Below, in pieces: positions 30,439-37,678 of a stretch of DNA of 64,000 bases. Below the pieces are notes generated by a model that had not been told where the DNA came from, searched no databases, and worked only from the letters and a program-made list of their open reading frames with translations. This DNA is from Bradyrhizobium sp. CCBAU 53338 (GTDB lineage: Bacteria > Pseudomonadota > Alphaproteobacteria > Rhizobiales > Xanthobacteraceae), in the NCBI RefSeq assembly GCF_015291665.1, contig NZ_CP030048.1:4092001-4156000 (forward strand), given 5' to 3'. The translations under genes and the position numbers were made by a program. Positions within the stretch are counted from its first letter, which is position 1; each line of letters opens with the position of its first letter.

Positions 30439-30534
30439 AAAGAGCGAACCAGTCGCTCGCGCGGGGCTGCGTATAACAAAGCCGGTTGCGCTTGCAAAGG
30501 ACGAATTCGCCATCGTGCGCAAAGCATCGAGAAA

Positions 30535-30549
30535 GGGCTGATCCAGCCC
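30535..30549 (-). terminator. Short hairpin with T-rich tail
   Basis: GGGCTG and CAGCCC pair around ATC. On the minus strand the stem is followed by TTTCTC. It lies 25 bp after the stop of the degenerate ORF at 30574, so it would end transcription from that side. Confidence 0.4.
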
Positions 30550-30573
30550 CTCCTCGGCTTGGGTCAGGTCAAA

Positions 30574-30825
30574 TTACTCGGCGACGAACGAGGTGGACTT
30601 GGTGCCGGAATCGTAGCGCAGGCGAAGCGCGGTGAACTTGCAGAGGTTGACGTTCTTCCAGAGCACGGACTCGTTGTAGTTCTCCCAAACAACGCGGATA
30701 TTCCAGACGCAGCCTTCGTCATTATCATCGTCGAACTCGACATAGGTGCTGGCCTGGTTCTGCAAGACCTTGTCCAGTTCGTTGTCCCATTCGTCCAAGC
30801 CATCGTCCGGTGTGTTGAAGCCGAG
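30574..30825 (-). pseudogene. C-terminal remnant of a small secreted-type protein
   Basis: The last 83 codons read as good protein: LGFNTPDDGLDEWDNELDK, then TYVEFDDDNDEGCVWNIRV and WKNVNLCKFTALRLRY, with two Cys placed as in a family of small periplasmic proteins that I recall having D-x-W...L...FDD...C...NVC patterns. No ATG, GTG or TTG start with a signal peptide is found in this frame. Upstream the frame runs into Arg-rich low-quality sequence and then the hairpin cluster at 30855-30962. I read it as a gene that lost its N-terminus. It could alternatively be a frameshifted intact gene. Confidence 0.4.
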
Positions 30826-30854
30826 GAATTGACGTCGATCGGCGCAAGCGCCGC

Positions 30855-30962
30855 GGCAACCAAGGCGTTGCCTTGAACAGTTCGTCCGGAGCGTGGTCGA
30901 GAGTTTCGACGGCCTCTCGACCCGCGCTCCGGCTCGTTGCGCGACGCGAGACGCGCAACGAG
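30855..30962. repeat. Three consecutive strong hairpins after the flotillin gene
   Basis: Hairpin 1 is GGCAAC/GTTGCC (30855-30872). Hairpin 2 spans 30886-30932 with arms CCGGAGCG/CGCTCCGG and GGTCGAGAG/CTCTCGACC, 17 base pairs with a 1-by-2 internal loop. Hairpin 3 is CTCGTTGCGCG/CGCGCAACGAG (30933-30962), 11 pairs. They lie between the flotillin stop (31007) and the remnant ORF. They may be inserted REP-type palindromes, an RNA 3' end, or a small RNA. Confidence 0.6.
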
Positions 30963-31006
30963 CGAAGTCATATCGTTTCGAATTCTCCGTAGCAATGAAC
31001 CAACAT

Positions 31007-32716
31007 TCATAGATCGGCGGAGTTTGTTTTCTCCGGCGCAGGCACCGCCGCCGGCACTGTCGCGGCACCGTTGGCCTTGCCTGTAACGGCGCCAACCAGC
31101 GACTTCACGGGATCATCGCCCGGTGCAAAGCCGCTCTGGCGCAGGATCTCGTCGATCATCGGACGCAGCGCGTGGACCTTGAGCAGTTCGCCGGCGAGCC
31201 CCTCGCCGAAGCCGACGCCGCCGCCTGCAGCTCCGCTGCCGTTGCCGCCGAACGCACCGCCGGTGTGCAGGATGCGAACGTCCTTGAGGTTGGCGATCGG
31301 CTTGACCATCTCGGCCAGCGCCGACGGCATCGTCTCGATCCGCTTCTTGGCAATCTCGAAATCGATGACGTTGCTGCCGAGCTTGTTCTGCGCCTCGTTC
31401 TTCATGGTGATGACGGCGGCCTCGGCCTCACCGATGTTGCGCACGCCAACCGCCTTGATCTTGTTGGACTCGGCTTCGGCCGTCGCCAGCGTCTTGACGG
31501 CTTCGGCGCGGTCGAGCGAAGCCTTCTTGTCGGCTTCGGCCGCGACGATCAACTCGGTGGATTTGCGTTCGGCCTCGGTGCGCGCGGCCAGCACCTGGGT
31601 CAGTCGGGCGCGATCCGCGACTTCGACGGCGCGCGCGGTCACGACCTTTTCCTCCGCCGATACGGCGAGTGCTTCGGCCGCCTTGGCTTCGGCTACGGCC
31701 TCTGAAGTCTGCTTGCTCTTGGACGCGATCTGGATCTCGTTTTCCTGGGTTGCGATCTGGATTTCGCGCTGCGCATCGGTCTTGCGCTTGTTGATCGCGA
31801 GATCCGACTCGATGACGGCGGTCTCCTTGACCTGCTTGGCGCCCGCCTCCTTCTCCGCGACCGCCCGGTCGGTGTCGATGCGGGCGTTCTCCTCGGTCAG
31901 GCGCGCGGTCTGCGTCGCGGTGGCGACCTCGGCGCGCGTGCTCGCGGTCTTGTTGGCAATGTCGCGCTCCTGCGACAGCTCGGCTTCCTTCTTGGTCCGC
32001 TCGATCCCCAGCGTCTGCTGGCGCGCCTCCAGATCCTTCTGCGCGATCGCGACCTCGTTGTCGCGCACGATCGCGTTGCGGTCGCGTCGGCGGGTTTCCG
32101 TGATGGTCTTGAGCTGGGTCAGGCCTTCGGCGTCGAAGAAGTTCTCGGGGTTGAAGAATTTGACATCGGTCTGGTCGAGCTTCGTGAGCGATACCGACTC
32201 CAGCTCGAGGCCGTTGGATTTCACGTCGGACTCCACGGTCGCCTGCACGTGCTTGACGAAGTCCGAACGTTTTTCCTGGAGCTCCAGGATGGTCATGGTC
32301 GCCGCCACCGAACGCAGGCCGTCGACGAATTTGGCCTCGACCTGGTTGCGCAGGGCTTCGGCGTCGTTGGTCAATGCGCCCAGGGTCTGGCTCGCCAGCG
32401 CAATGCTCTCGTCATCCGGGCGAACACGGACATAGAACTCGGCCACGATATCCACGCGCAGCCGATCCTTGGTGATGAGGGATTCCCTCTCTTTCCGCTC
32501 GACCGTAAGCCTGAGCGTTTTCAGGTTCACGCTCGCATAGGAATGGAAGATCGGCAGGATCATGGCGCCGCCGTCGAGCACGACTTTCTTGCCACCGAGG
32601 CCGGTGCGCACGAAGGCCTCATCGCGCGTGGCGCGCTTGTAGAGAATGGTGAAGATAATGCCCAAAACGACGATCAGCGCGACGCCGATCACGGCCGGGA
32701 CTGCGATGTCGAACAT
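31007..32716 (-). CDS. Flotillin (YqiK/FloT-like)
   Basis: This is a 569-residue scaffold protein of membrane microdomains. An N-terminal membrane segment (AVPAVIGVALIVVLGIIFTIL, residues 5-25) is followed by the SPFH/band-7 domain to about residue 200. A long Ala/Glu-rich coiled coil with repeated AEA-type heptads runs to about 470. The C-terminal region holds a Gly-rich stretch (GGAFGGNGSGAAGGG) and a Pro/Ala tail. It lies 19 bp after the YqiJ-like gene, as in the E. coli yqiJ-yqiK pair. The third gene of this operon is PspA-like, so a role in membrane stress is likely. Confidence 0.93.
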   Translation of the reverse strand: MFDIAVPAVIGVALIVVLGIIFTILYKRATRDEAFVRTGLGGKKVVLDGGAMILPIFHSYASVNLKTLRLTVERKERESLITKDRLRVDIVAEFYVRVRPDDESIALASQTLGALTNDAEALRNQVEAKFVDGLRSVAATMTILELQEKRSDFVKHVQATVESDVKSNGLELESVSLTKLDQTDVKFFNPENFFDAEGLTQLKTITETRRRDRNAIVRDNEVAIAQKDLEARQQTLGIERTKKEAELSQERDIANKTASTRAEVATATQTARLTEENARIDTDRAVAEKEAGAKQVKETAVIESDLAINKRKTDAQREIQIATQENEIQIASKSKQTSEAVAEAKAAEALAVSAEEKVVTARAVEVADRARLTQVLAARTEAERKSTELIVAAEADKKASLDRAEAVKTLATAEAESNKIKAVGVRNIGEAEAAVITMKNEAQNKLGSNVIDFEIAKKRIETMPSALAEMVKPIANLKDVRILHTGGAFGGNGSGAAGGGVGFGEGLAGELLKVHALRPMIDEILRQSGFAPGDDPVKSLVGAVTGKANGAATVPAAVPAPEKTNSADL

Positions 32717-32735
32717 GATTTTCTCCGATAATGAC

Positions 32736-33398
32736 TTAGCTGCTGCTTGGAGTAGGTTTTGTCGGTTTCAGTTCATCGTCAGCCCTGACAGCCACGAAAC
32801 GCGTGTCGACGCGATCGACCAGGAGCACCAATGTGCCTTGGGGCAGCGGCGATGACGTGGGCGCGGCGACCGCCGAGACGAAATGCCTGTTGCCGTGGAT
32901 GTCCGCGACGCTGACACGGCCGGGCGGCCCTTGGTCGAGCGGACCGACCACGACCTCCCCGACGCGGCCGACGAGATCGCCGAGGCCGACGGCGTAGCTC
33001 TCGTCCTTGGGAATGATCCGTGCGATGCCGCCGCTGGCGGCACGGACCAGCGGCACCGAGACGACGACCGCGGCAAGGGAGGCGATCGAGGCGGGCAACG
33101 GGCCGGCCACCATCCGTGCGACGTCCTGGATCAGGAAGCCCGTGATCGAGAAGGCGCCGAGCGCCAGCAACAGGAAGATCAGCAGCGGCACGCCGCCGAC
33201 GTTGATCCAGGAGATGGCGTTGATGACGCCGTTGTCGCTGGGATGGCTGAAATCGATGCTGGTGCCGAGCATCTCGCTGAGCGAGGCCCCGACCAGCATC
33301 GTGACCACTTCGAGCGTGCCGACGATGAGGATCATGGCCGCCGCGATCGCGAACGGCCGGACCTCCGGCGACATGACGTGTTCGAGCAATGCGCTCAT
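32736..33398 (-). CDS. YqiJ-like inner-membrane protein with OB-fold domain
   Basis: This is a 220-residue protein. Hydrophobic segments are seen at about residues 16-38 (FAIAAAMILIVGTLEVVTMLVG), 66-90 (GGVPLLIFLLLALGAFSITGFLI) and 97-120. From about residue 130 a soluble beta domain follows (GLGDLVGRVGEVVVGPLDQGPPGRVSVAD), the NfeD/OB-like part that partners flotillins. It lies 19 bp before the flotillin gene and 12 bp after the PspA-like gene, so all three form one operon. Confidence 0.88.
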   Translation of the reverse strand: MSALLEHVMSPEVRPFAIAAAMILIVGTLEVVTMLVGASLSEMLGTSIDFSHPSDNGVINAISWINVGGVPLLIFLLLALGAFSITGFLIQDVARMVAGPLPASIASLAAVVVSVPLVRAASGGIARIIPKDESYAVGLGDLVGRVGEVVVGPLDQGPPGRVSVADIHGNRHFVSAVAAPTSSPLPQGTLVLLVDRVDTRFVAVRADDELKPTKPTPSSS

Positions 33399-33410
33399 GA
33401 CACGATGCTC

Positions 33411-34565
33411 TCAGGAACGCGACTTCAACCGCGCGAGCCTCGCCGCAATTTCCTTGTCGCGATGGAGCGCGCTGAGTTCGTCGATGTCACTCGAATACGG
33501 AATGCCCGGCGGCACGCCGGTGACGCGCGCCACCGCCCTGCCCGCACGCAGCGCCTTCGCCGTCGCCGAGCTGCCGCCACGCTTCCGCGGCGAATTCGAC
33601 GCCTGGTGGCTCGCCGCGGCCTCGCTCTTTTCAAGATCGACGCGGCGCCGTTCGGCATCCTGAAGCGCCGAGAGCACTGCGCGCAGCGAGGTGACGCATT
33701 GCTCGATCTTCTCGTTGTTCTCGTCGATGGCGCGGGAGAGCACCTCGAACTGCGCCTCCAGATCCATCTGCCGCGCGATACCGGCGCGAGCGAGATCGTC
33801 GCGGCTGTCGGCGATCGCGCCCTCGATCTTGGCAGCGAGATCGGTCATCTCGCGTTCGATCTCGGTACGACGCGCATTGAGGCGGTATTCCTCGGCGCGC
33901 GCGGCAGCAAGCGCATCGCGCGCCTCGCTCTCGGCGCGCTCGATCTCGCGAATGGCCTGGCCGACCACTTTCAGCTTGTTGTTGCCTTCCGCCTGCTCGA
34001 TCGCGTCATAAGCGATGCCGGCAATGAGACGTCCGACCCGGGACAGGAAATTCTCGGGAGCGGCTGCGATGGTATCCATAGCGTTCTCCTCCTCTGGCAG
34101 ACTGTTCGGCGTGACGCCGTAGTGAACTTCGAAACCGTCGTCGGTGCGGATCAGGTGCGCGGGCACGCTCTGGCCCCAGCCGTCCGCGTAACCGACGTAG
34201 TCGAAGGGCACGCTGAAGCGCCCTTGCACGGTGGAAATCGAAATGGTGGCCGGCCCCTTGATCTTGGCCAGCTTGTCGTCGAGCGGCAGGCGGCGGCCTT
34301 GCGCGGCGCGATAGTCCGCGCGGTCGCGCAGGCCCAGCGTCACCAGCCGCGACGGCAGCGCGGTTTCTTTCCGGATCGGCTCGTAGGCATGGGCATGCAG
34401 CAGCACGACATTGGAGCCCACGTTATGGGTTCGTGCGACCTCATCCAGGATCTCCATCATGCGGTCATAAGCCTGGAACGTCGCCTCCATGGCGGCCTTG
34501 GCGGCCGGATCAGGGGCAAGCCGGTATCGAAGCGCCGATGGCGCATTTCGGGGCGACGGGCTCAT
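33411..34565 (-). CDS. PspA/IM30-like coiled-coil protein with a TnpB-like N-terminal region
   Basis: This is a 384-residue protein. Residues 163-384 are PspA/IM30-like: an amphipathic start (MDTIAAAPENFLSRVGRLIAGI) and long helices (NNKLKVVGQAIREIERAESEARDALAAARAEEYRL), ending in a basic tail. Residues 1-162 resemble the N-terminal (non-nuclease) part of IS605-type TnpB proteins: LRYRLAPDPAAKAAMEATF, LHAHAYEPIRKETALPSRL and the block LPLDDKLAKIKGPATISIST-VQGRFSVPF. The RuvC and zinc-finger parts of TnpB are absent. ATG 34565 is the first good start; GTG 34574 is possible. A second strong site, GAGGAGGAG, lies 6 bp before in-frame ATG 34079, so a PspA-only product may also be made. The TnpB resemblance is from memory of family patterns. 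Confidence 0.8.
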   Translation of the reverse strand: MSPSPRNAPSALRYRLAPDPAAKAAMEATFQAYDRMMEILDEVARTHNVGSNVVLLHAHAYEPIRKETALPSRLVTLGLRDRADYRAAQGRRLPLDDKLAKIKGPATISISTVQGRFSVPFDYVGYADGWGQSVPAHLIRTDDGFEVHYGVTPNSLPEEENAMDTIAAAPENFLSRVGRLIAGIAYDAIEQAEGNNKLKVVGQAIREIERAESEARDALAAARAEEYRLNARRTEIEREMTDLAAKIEGAIADSRDDLARAGIARQMDLEAQFEVLSRAIDENNEKIEQCVTSLRAVLSALQDAERRRVDLEKSEAAASHQASNSPRKRGGSSATAKALRAGRAVARVTGVPPGIPYSSDIDELSALHRDKEIAARLARLKSRS

Positions 34566-34574
34566 GGAAAGCAC

Positions 34575-34597
34575 TAAAGCACCATTTTGGTGCTTTA
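34575..34597. promoter_or_regulatory. Perfect palindrome with NtrC-type core before the PspA-like operon
   Basis: Arms TAAAGCACCA and TGGTGCTTTA flank TTT, a perfect 23-bp palindrome. Its core GCACC-ATTTT-GGTGC is the NtrC-binding consensus known from enteric glnA-type promoters. It ends 9 bp upstream of ATG 34565, too close for an activator of a promoter downstream. It would act as a repressor site, as a remote site, or as an RNA hairpin over the leader. A terminal hairpin of a decayed IS605-type element is another reading. Confidence 0.55.
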
Positions 34598-34872
34598 CAA
34601 AGGGGGAGTTCGATCACGTTCCGCTGATCCTGATGCACTCTGAAGGTTAGTCGCTGTCGCCCGGGGCCGCGTTCAAGGCGGGCCATCACTCCTAGTTCAC
34701 CGCCGATCAAGACTTCCTGCACGCTCGGGTTGCAATTTTACGTAAAGTCGACAGCGACTGAGACATGAGACCAGGGTTGTGATGGGCAACTCTCTCGCCG
34801 TCATCGCCGCGTGCGGGGCACGGACTGTGCGCTATCCCTTCGCATCCCAACACGCAGACACAGCCTCGCGAT

Positions 34873-35448
34873 CTCGCGGCGCGTTGCGCCCGAGCTTTGC
34901 ATCGCCGCATCACCCCTCCTATGTCAGAGGGTGCAGGGAAGACCGGGTGCCGGCTGGCACCCGCGGTCCACTGTGCGATATCTGCGCTACAAGAGGCTGC
35001 ACAGCGGCATACAGGTGAAGCCAAAACATCCGGCCTTCCCTGCGCAGTGGGTTGACGGCTTATGCCGTGGTCTCCCCGGGGAGCGATGCACTATTGCCCC
35101 CGTCGCCTTGCAGATGGCTGATGCGCGGGCCCGGTTGGGCTCCACGCATCACCGCAAGACTTGACGCACAGACTCCGGGCGTCAGGACGACACGGTTTTG
35201 CCGTACGCCGTCACACCGGTCGTGTGCGCGAGGCCCTTGCTCACGGTTGCCCGCCCTGCAAAACCCTTCGCGCCGGTGTGACCCACGTCCACCACGGCTC
35301 ATCCCACGTTCGTGACGATCGCGATACGCCCCCTGACCGGGATGAGGTGGCGGATATCTACTGCAAATCAGAAATTCGGTAAAGGAGAATATTTTCGCCA
35401 GCGACGATTGACCCGCTGATTGGGTGTTTTGCTCGTCGGGCAACGCAA
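34873..35448 (-). repeat. 576-bp dispersed repeat, copy B (inverted)
   Basis: This is the reverse complement of copy A at 20644-21219, with equal length and about eight differences by eye. The boundary toward 35448 is sharp: both copies begin TTGCGTTGCCCGACG and the outer flanks are unrelated. At the other end similarity fades gradually, with shared patches down to about 34786. No target duplication or terminal inverted repeat was found. The stretch 34598-34872 between the palindrome and this repeat holds no gene I can recognise. The channel gene starts 95 bp beyond the sharp end. Confidence 0.85.
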
Positions 35449-35542
35449 GGGATGGTGTTTTATGACGGACTGAGCCATCAATTCGTGACGGGACTGTCCT
35501 CAAGGATCCGCCAATGACGCGGCTCGAGACCGGGAAACATCG

Positions 35543-36685
35543 ATGACACGTCCGCAACCGGCCACCAGCTCTCGCGCTCGAACCGGTCGGCTGCCCTGGC
35601 CGGTCGCGGCCAAGGTCACGCGCGGGCTGGTGTTGGCACTGCTCATCTGCGTGACCTGGTCTACGGCCCAGGCAGAGACCGCCAGGCTCCGGGTGGCGAC
35701 CCGCGTCGTCCCACCCATGGTCGTCGAGAAGAACGGCACGCTAGGCGGCTTCAGTATCGAGCTCTGGAACAGCATCGGAAAACGACTGAACCGCGAGACC
35801 GAATATGTCGTGTTGCCGGATGTGCGCGAATTGCTCGACGCTGTGGCAAGTGGACGGGCCGATCTCGCCATCGCGGCCATCTCGATCACGTCGGAGCGAG
35901 AGGACAGATTCGACTTCTCCCAGCCGATCATGAACTCGGGCCTGCAGGTTCTGGTGCGTGGCAATGCCGTCAATGTCGCAGCCAATCCGTTGCGCGAGCT
36001 GATGCAACTGTTCTTCTCGCGCACGCTGCTGATCTGGCTCGGTGTTGCGCTTCTCCTGATCCTGGTTCCCGCGCATCTGATGTTTCTGGTCGAGCGAACG
36101 CATCACAGCGGAATCATTCCCACCCGGAAATATTTCCCCGGAATCTTCCATGCGATGTTTTGGGCGGCGGGCACGCTCGCCACCCAGGCCGACCAGATGC
36201 CGCGGCACTGGATGGCTCGCATCGTGGCCGTGCTATGGATGTTCACGGGGGTGGTGTTCGTCGCCTTCTATACGGCGCAGCTGACGGCGTCTTTGACCGT
36301 GCAGCAGATCAAGGGACCGATCAACGGCCCGCAGGATCTCGTCGGCAAGACCGTCGGCACGACACGGGGCAGCACGGCGACGGCTTATCTGAATGAGCTC
36401 AAGACCGAGGTTCGCGAATACGAGAAGGTCGATGACCTCTACCACGCGCTACTGGACCAGCAGGTCGACGCGGTCGTGTTCGATTCACCCGCCCTGCTTT
36501 ACTTCACGACCCACGACGGCAGAGGATTGGCCCGGACCGTTGGCGAGGTGTTCCACAAGGAAGACTACGGCATCGTTTTTCCGATGGGCAGTCCCCTGCG
36601 CAAGCAAGTGAACGAAGCTCTTCTGGGGCTCCGCGAGGGCGACACATATCAGAGGATTTACGAGGAATGGTTCGGCAAACGTTAG
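35543..36685 (+). CDS. Glutamate-receptor-like ligand-gated ion channel
   Basis: This is a 380-residue protein laid out like a prokaryotic ionotropic glutamate receptor. It has a signal peptide to about residue 44, then the first half of an amino-acid-binding domain (S1, about 46-150). A membrane helix follows (TLLIWLGVALLLILVPAHLMFLVE, 161-184), then a pore loop (IFHAMFWAAGTLATQ, 201-215), a second helix (222-245) and the hallmark YTAQLTASLTV (243-253, compare SYTANLAAFLTV of animal receptors). The second half of the binding domain (S2, 256-380) completes it. The pore has no TVGYG, so ion selectivity is open. It stands alone, without ABC transporter genes. Start MTRPQPATSS at 35543; a longer N-terminus is possible. 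Confidence 0.85.
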   Translation: MTRPQPATSSRARTGRLPWPVAAKVTRGLVLALLICVTWSTAQAETARLRVATRVVPPMVVEKNGTLGGFSIELWNSIGKRLNRETEYVVLPDVRELLDAVASGRADLAIAAISITSEREDRFDFSQPIMNSGLQVLVRGNAVNVAANPLRELMQLFFSRTLLIWLGVALLLILVPAHLMFLVERTHHSGIIPTRKYFPGIFHAMFWAAGTLATQADQMPRHWMARIVAVLWMFTGVVFVAFYTAQLTASLTVQQIKGPINGPQDLVGKTVGTTRGSTATAYLNELKTEVREYEKVDDLYHALLDQQVDAVVFDSPALLYFTTHDGRGLARTVGEVFHKEDYGIVFPMGSPLRKQVNEALLGLREGDTYQRIYEEWFGKR

Positions 36686-36924
36686 ATAGGTCAGCCGGAA
36701 CGAGGTCCCGTCGTTCGGGCTGAGGCGTCCCGACAAATCAGACGATCTTGCTGCAAGGCGAATCTGCGTCACGAATCCGTCAGGTGTGATTCCGAGATTT
36801 CCCGGACCGGCCTCGGACCCCGGTCGTTCAACAGCTTGTCCGCAGCATATCCACAGCTCGACGCGGACGATTTGTGCAGAATTCACCAGCCACTTGCTGC
36901 GCACAAATCCACAGCCAACCCGGC

Positions 36925-37188
36925 TCAGCCGCCCGCCTGGTCGAACACGCTGCGGCAAGCCTCGCTCAGGCTTGAGCGGTTACGACGCAGACAGGCCGTG
37001 ATGGCGCGGACGTTGGGGATCTCGCCGGCGCAGAGCCGGTAGACGTCGGGTGTGCAGGCCCGGCGCTGTTCCGGCGTGCCCTGTTGCGCCTGGGCTGTGG
37101 TGGCAAACAGCGTCAGGAACAGCCCGACCGTGGAGGCGCGGCGCGCCCGGCTTCTCACACGCGCAAACCGCAAGAACCTCGCCTTCAT
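36925..37188 (-). CDS. Small secreted Cys-rich protein (GLG1-type repeat)
   Basis: This is an 87-residue protein from ATG 37188, preceded by AGGAG 7 bp upstream. It has a basic N-terminus and a hydrophobic core VGLFLTLFATTAQA with likely cleavage before QQGTPEQ. The mature part has four Cys in the pattern of a Cys-rich GLG1 repeat: RACTPDVYRLCAGEIPNV, then ITACLRRNRSSLSEACRSVF. It is a periplasmic protein of unknown role. The frame continues upstream to 37242 without support. The gap 36686-36924 on its 3' side shows no gene. Confidence 0.75.
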   Translation of the reverse strand: MKARFLRFARVRSRARRASTVGLFLTLFATTAQAQQGTPEQRRACTPDVYRLCAGEIPNVRAITACLRRNRSSLSEACRSVFDQAGG

Positions 37189-37302
37189 GACCAGTCTCCT
37201 GTCTGCCTTGCCCGCCCGGCCGCCGTTGGCCGGTGTGGGCAAAGAGGTAGGAGGATTAAATCCCGGGGAATGTGATCTCTTTCACACTGGCACCGCCGCG
37301 CA

Positions 37303-37327
37303 GGAACCTAGACTTTCCTTCGGGGTT
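37303..37327 (+). promoter_or_regulatory. Possible EcfG-type (general stress) promoter
   Basis: GGAAC (37303-37307), 16 bp, then GGTT (37324-37327) approximates the alphaproteobacterial EcfG consensus GGAAC-N16/17-CGTT with one mismatch in the -10 element. It lies about 155 bp upstream of the small gene at 37484. Confidence 0.3.
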
Positions 37328-37483
37328 TTTTCCGAGTGGGCCTCGGGGATTTTCTTTGGGGATTTTCACGAAACGCTAACCAAACGGGCCCTGATCGCCT
37401 GATCGTTAAAATGCGAGCGATCGGGTCAATCGGGTAACAAACCGGCTTTGCGACAGTGCGCCATCCGTGGTCCGGAGGGTGTG

Positions 37484-37678
37484 ATGAGCGAAGCCGAATT
37501 CAACTTGATGCTGGATGCCGTCCGCGACGCCATGATTCATGACAATTTCGCGCCCGCACCGGAGGAGGACTTCCTGTCCCGCTCGTGGAGCTTCGACGCG
37601 ACGCCGAAAGCGGCCAACGACAATGAGGGCGCCTGGCCCCTGCTGCCCTTTCCGGACGGTTGGTACGCCGCCTGCTGA
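37484..37678 (+). CDS. Small protein, function unknown
   Basis: This is a 64-residue protein, MSEAEFNLMLDAVRDAMIHDNF, ending PLLPFPDGWYAAC. ATG 37484 is preceded by GGAGG; a GTG sits 3 bp upstream in frame. The N-terminus is helical, and the middle contains the polar stretch FDATPKAANDNEG, a form common in short rhizobial proteins. No domain is recognised. A possible EcfG-type promoter is at 37303. Confidence 0.6.
   Translation: MSEAEFNLMLDAVRDAMIHDNFAPAPEEDFLSRSWSFDATPKAANDNEGAWPLLPFPDGWYAAC

Follow-up and report, generated by a model that had tools for sequence, protein, structure and literature searches.

A TnpB-derived domain fused to PspA in Bradyrhizobium as a candidate RNA-free regulator of its own membrane-stress operon

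The window, a stretch of 64,000 nucleotides from Bradyrhizobium sp. CCBAU 53338 (contig NZ_CP030048.1, positions 4,092,001 to 4,156,000), carries on its minus strand a gene that runs from a GTG at 34574 or an ATG at 34565 to a stop at 33411 and encodes a protein of 384-387 residues. Residues 1-162 (34080..34565) form a domain of their own, here called the N-domain, and the rest (33411..34079; 222 residues plus the stop, beginning at a separate start, 34079) is a PspA/IM30 protein: PspA_IM30 (PF04012) matched residues 174-336 with 44.6 bits at a cut-off of 33.9 (E 4e-12 to 1.7e-11), while the classical PspA equivalog TIGR02977 was not reached (32.9 bits, or 35.8 with the PspA part alone, vs a cut-off of 242.95). 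After a gap of 12 nt follow a gene for a yqiJ-type membrane protein (32736..33398, minus strand; PF21001 and PF07290) and one for a flotillin/SPFH protein (31007..32716, minus strand; PF15975 and PF01145), and the window holds the three genes of a PspA-YqiJ-flotillin operon in that order on one strand. The same order, with yqiJ second and flotillin third, was kept in all seven distant fusion loci examined (L168-L174). The initial annotation, which gave no strand, had described an uninterrupted frame leading into a PspA/IM30 coiled coil at the head of a YqiJ/flotillin operon and had quoted three motif blocks from the N-terminal part; the minus-strand frame is indeed continuous, all three blocks are found in its translation, and the Pfam matches identify the coiled-coil part as well as both downstream genes. 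An antisense frame of 564 aa on the plus strand (32883-34577), opposite the fusion and a segment of yqiJ, is interrupted in several relatives and was rejected as spurious; the fusion frame itself is open in 21 of the 21 full-length relatives.

It is close to certain that the N-domain is homologous to TnpB, and the part that is shared is a TnpB-type WED-REC module. The AlphaFold model of the N-domain (pLDDT 87; pLDDT 77.9 and pTM 0.42 for the full-length fusion) had TnpB/Cas12 matches in a fold search, hhalign aligned the domain to TnpB with a match that stops shortly before the RuvC aspartate, and a scan with the N-domain profile picked up a TnpB. The nearest TnpB, that of Mariprofundus ferrinatatus (P0140, locus L155), has the WED-REC fold and sequence in common with the N-domain, and N52, H57, Y61, R65, T68, L70, D96, K103, T112, G115 and R116 are near-invariant in TnpB and N-domain alike. 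Where TnpB continues into RuvC and a zinc finger, the fusion has PspA and stands at the head of a PspA-yqiJ-flotillin operon: neither the RuvC part (PF01385) nor the zinc finger (PF07282, TNB; present in P0140) was among its Pfam matches at E <= 10. Both the TnpB likeness of residues 1-162 and the loss of RuvC and zinc finger had been put forward from the letters alone, and the alignment, the profile scan, the structural comparison and the Pfam matches bear this proposal out. Foldseek against the PDB with the N-domain gave no match at E 1e-3 or better, and when the domain profile was searched against PDB sequences, the three matches obtained were all unrelated. With residues 1-162 alone, neither Pfam nor NCBIfam gave a match at E <= 10, and scans of single N-domains against Pfam, NCBIfam and PHROGs returned no convincing family. 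Among 34 members, three showed a hint of TnpB through PF12323 (HTH_OrfB_IS605, best E 0.011) and 12 matched the NCBIfam family ABC_BMP_B6 (best E 4e-4); the latter on its face contradicts the TnpB reading, and was taken as chance because the structure and profile tests point elsewhere. A TnpB with PF01385 was not found in the complete genome from which the window comes (G000), so no resident element can have supplied the N-domain as a fresh copy.

The fusion is present in Bradyrhizobium and in scattered relatives. Among 60 genomes, the window's own included, 25 matched, namely 21 with a full-length fusion, one at a contig end (L022), two with PspA only (L023 and L024) and one with a weak match (L025). 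With the joined frame in 21 full-length fusions, it is not an accident of one genome. At the genus level a match was present in only 21 of 36 genomes (again with its own), and the operon is therefore patchy. The N-domain profile found members in 15 of 297 genomes of the order and in 4 of 289 of the class, and near the distant hits in 4 of 17, 4 of 5, 8 of 76, 8 of 20 and 1 of 12 genomes, some of which recur. A search of 5.8 billion proteins yielded 151 relatives, with PF04012 in 116 of 120 among the matches listed, and a second search with a distant member as query gave PF04012 in 16 of 17; both protein searches admitted fusion-like lengths only, lone domains being visible in the genome scans as short frames. 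These scans revealed one lone N-domain (genome G948, locus L180), and its frame of 185 aa is the single exception to the range of 368-481 aa observed for 115 distinct domains. The survey of relatives that the initial annotation had proposed thus found the fusion and its upstream frame kept. A record titled Frankia sp. RB7 (L050, JAUEPE010000003.1) carries a Bradyrhizobium-type fusion with 95% identity; it may bear a wrong label or be contaminated.

TnpB genes are mobile and often decay, which would fit a passive remnant, i.e. a broken TnpB gene that came to lie in frame ahead of pspA and has no role. Against this, the N-domain is under purifying selection (dN/dS 0.04-0.13 versus eight relatives) and has 22 invariant columns in 34 sequences, with identity down to 30%; moreover, the frame is open in the fusion loci and the inverted repeat described below is conserved. 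Because of this conservation, a remnant is excluded in practice.

Directly upstream of the fusion start we found a 21-bp inverted repeat, AAAGCAC-N7-GTGCTTT (34576..34596), which we propose as an operator. In the genome of 8.28 Mb an exact copy of the dyad is found at this site only, and with at most two mismatches there are 7 sites genome-wide, this one included, vs 15 for a backward control. Each of 103 upstream regions, many of which are close relatives of one another, has a dyad whose ends are A-rich and T-rich (106 distinct regions were collected, and L022 (contig end), L155 (the TnpB) and L160 (spurious) were set aside). The inner arms read GCAC/GTGC in 80 of these regions, and the variant arms GGAC/GTCC, ACAC/GTGT, GTAT/GTAC and GGAT/GTCC retain most of the pairing through paired changes in both arms. 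For 10 distinct arm pairs, L115 and L118 being one base off register, the pairing was 0.725 vs a permutation mean of 0.545, a value as high being reached in 15 of 20,000 permutations. The window's clade has a third half-site, GTGCTTT (34568..34574, minus strand), which overlaps the GTG start, and the segment 34568-34596 there comprises three half-sites (an inverted pair and a direct copy) ahead of the ATG. L189 also has additional half-sites, in a different layout. Upstream of the candidate operator lies a region of about 0.9 kb (34597-35542) without an obvious gene.

In the rows from outside the window's clade, promoter-like hexamers flank the dyad in 29 of 36 (8 or more of 12 matches in the best of six registers), with a spacer of 16-18 nt, mostly 17-18, and the dyad overlaps both hexamers; in 31 of 36 the start codon stands 6-7 nt past the second hexamer, as in a leaderless message. 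Within the window's clade the hexamers fit poorly (5 of 24 rows reach 8 of 12 matches), a strict scan of the window found no promoter, and in L189, where the dyad stands just ahead of the start, the hexamers are off the common layout. A dyad that overlaps both hexamers occupies the usual place of a repressor site. Activators of the MerR-family type also bind dyads between promoter hexamers, and together with the poor hexamers of the window this could be read as a domain that binds the same dyad and helps RNA polymerase; the ordinary spacer in the relatives and the overlap with both hexamers argue against it, and we regard activation as very improbable.

The sequence of the dyad covaries with one residue of the N-domain, R73 in the window (codon at 34347..34349, minus strand), which we propose to read a base of the operator. 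Residue 73 (R in 104 and Q in 11 of 115 distinct domains) follows operator pair 5/17 in every one of them. The rows with R have C/G in both arms (94) or in one arm (10), and those with Q have G/C (7) or T/A (4, with L186 as re-read) and never C/G; the arms of L186 (GTAT/GTAC) were read by eye and set by hand, and L047 and L054 were corrected for register to GCAC/GTGC. The association of R with GCAC/GTGC and of Q with other arms was first seen in the earlier loci, and the loci fetched afterwards agreed. It also holds for L180 and L189, which have R with GCAC/GTGC although they adjoin Q clades, and for L114, where Q goes with GGAC/GTCC in the midst of neighbours with R. A tree made from 68 of the 115 rows, with column 73 left out, shows three switches of both traits, each time jointly; there are only two to three such joint switches, and the two contrasts on starred branches, both concordant, are not significant in a sign test (p 0.5). 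Column 73 is the only one among 401 that has a single letter per class; two further columns, 17 (for which a part in TAM reading is not known) and 371 (within PspA), also divide the classes, but their letters are mixed. In a set of 30 TnpBs an invariant Gln stands at the position of residue 73, which also corresponds, via the alignment, to F77 of ISDra2 TnpB, for which van der Waals contacts to bases of the TAM, beside K76, are described (PMC10097598). At a further position, 57, His is found in 114 of the 115 domains; L120 has Thr, and its operator position 4 is A and not G (one case). The covariation of dyad and residue points to protein-DNA contact.

In ISDra2 TnpB the TAM duplex is read by the WED-REC cleft, and the scaffold of the guide RNA is held mainly by WED and RuvC (PMC10097598). 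Only 4 of 15 strongly basic TnpB columns are still basic in the N-domain and 11 are lost, as expected if the holding of RNA was given up, and the pI is 6.5 in the window (slightly acidic) and 5.1-8.4 in eight relatives, vs 9.6 for the TnpB half. With the TAM-reading cleft kept and most of the basic columns and RuvC lost, the N-domain looks like the DNA-reading half of TnpB with much of the RNA-holding half gone. Alternatively, the WED-REC piece might still bind a small RNA and use base pairing to direct PspA or the operon, in the manner of a shortened TldR, since TldRs are TnpB-derived, RNA-guided repressors with an inactivated RuvC (PMC13418256) and since WED touches the guide RNA in TnpB (PMC10097598). 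This is improbable, as RuvC, which in TnpB shares in holding the guide, is absent and the basic columns have mostly gone, only 12 nt separate the fusion from yqiJ, an Rfam scan of 30500-37500 gave no known family above threshold and one weak match (a result that leaves room for an RNA outside the known families), and the covariation described above indicates contact of protein with DNA. The weak match (CRISPR-DR29, 37012-37069, minus strand; 25.4 bits vs a cut-off of 39, E 0.05) is probably due to chance.

The domain, the dyad and PspA were found to be separable. In L180 the N-domain and the dyad are followed directly by yqiJ (E 1.4e-39) and flotillin (E 2e-87), and a PspA part was not found in this stretch; L175, conversely, has PspA, yqiJ and flotillin without the N-domain, and no such dyad was found in the 250 nt upstream. 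A third locus, L176, has a PspA-only gene and no yqiJ or flotillin match in its stretch. From L180 and L175 it follows that the domain is associated with the dyad and not with PspA. This bears on the possibility that the dyad belongs to another repressor and that the N-domain was added to PspA for a structural or protein-binding role (scaffolding, chaperoning or oligomerisation). Such a role would be in line with the frequent location of PspA genes next to protein-binding partners such as CesT/Tir and band-7 proteins in the surveyed neighbourhoods (PMC11237479), with an N-domain that is not basic and with the small number of independent switches at residue 73. It is at odds with residue 73 tracking the dyad and with the joint presence or absence of domain and dyad in L180 and L175; in addition, with the exact dyad at this promoter and no other place in the genome, a regulator with other targets of that sequence is unlikely. 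We consider an add-on possible, but unlikely.

The gene also has a conserved internal ribosome site, predicted to be strong in most of 99 distinct proteins. In the window the PspA methionine at 34079 is preceded by GAGGAGGAG (34086..34094, minus strand; duplex energy -11.3 kcal/mol), and over the 99 proteins, a set that omits L120 for lack of a motif match, pairing with the anti-Shine-Dalgarno sequence had a median duplex energy of -11.3 at the PspA start vs -5.1 before the first ATG, which outside the window's clade mostly lacks a Shine-Dalgarno sequence. The internal site persists despite changes in the residues it encodes (EEE, EEK, QKE, LKE). Exceptions are L113, where it is weak (-5.6) and tied with another Met, and L115, L118 and L119, where another internal Met is better. 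With this site, one gene would yield both a sensor-repressor and a plain effector.

The patterns in these sequences suggest that the N-domain now serves as a gene switch for its own operon. Our preferred reading, to which we assign a probability of roughly 0.65, is that the fusion is an RNA-free, TnpB-derived DNA-binding regulator of the operon made up of the fusion, yqiJ and flotillin, tied to a sensor of membrane stress. The WED-REC half of TnpB has lost the nuclease and the zinc finger and, we infer, the guide RNA. Copies of the fusion, joined via the PspA coiled coil, would occupy the inverted repeat, which overlaps the promoter, and cause repression; upon membrane damage PspA would be drawn to the membrane and the domain taken off the operator, which, once freed, would allow PspA, YqiJ and flotillin to be made. 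Through the internal ribosome site the same message may also give PspA alone, with its N-terminal membrane helix free.

PspA of E. coli is both an effector and a negative regulator of its own system (PMC2763126, PMC6003685), yet it acts on a separate activator, PspF, whereas here a DNA-binding domain would share the chain with PspA. The gene families found together here (PspA, YqiJ/YuaF and band-7/flotillin) are also found together in the neighbourhoods of a PSP survey, which names NlpC/P60, PspAA and tandem PspA fusions and does not use the word TnpB in its main text (PMC11237479). TldRs, as described in PMC13418256, resemble the fusion in being derived from TnpB, domesticated beside host genes and proposed to act in gene control; a TldR, however, combines a dead RuvC with a guide RNA, whereas in the fusion RuvC is gone and an operator dyad is indicated instead of a guide. 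The TnpB descendants described in these sources, Cas12, Fanzor and TldR, are RNA-guided, and neither a PspA-TnpB fusion nor a TnpB regulator without RuvC or RNA was found in the open-access literature as searched by title and start of abstract. New here are the dyad with its paired changes, the tracking by residue 73, the PspA-less L180 and the internal ribosome site.

It is fairly probable that we are dealing with a family of regulators in which the TAM-reading half of TnpB works without RNA, with a membrane-stress sensor in the same chain and PspA alone as a second product. If so, it would represent a new class of DNA-binding domain, with the TAM-reading half acting as an ordinary operator binder, and would imply that the protein-only step in TnpB/Cas12 targeting is able to work by itself. 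Such a family would, in addition, provide a small natural module in which the recognition of bases by residues can be read from evolution. For the PspA operons it would mean a built-in control mechanism, in which sensor, switch and effector are encoded by one gene.
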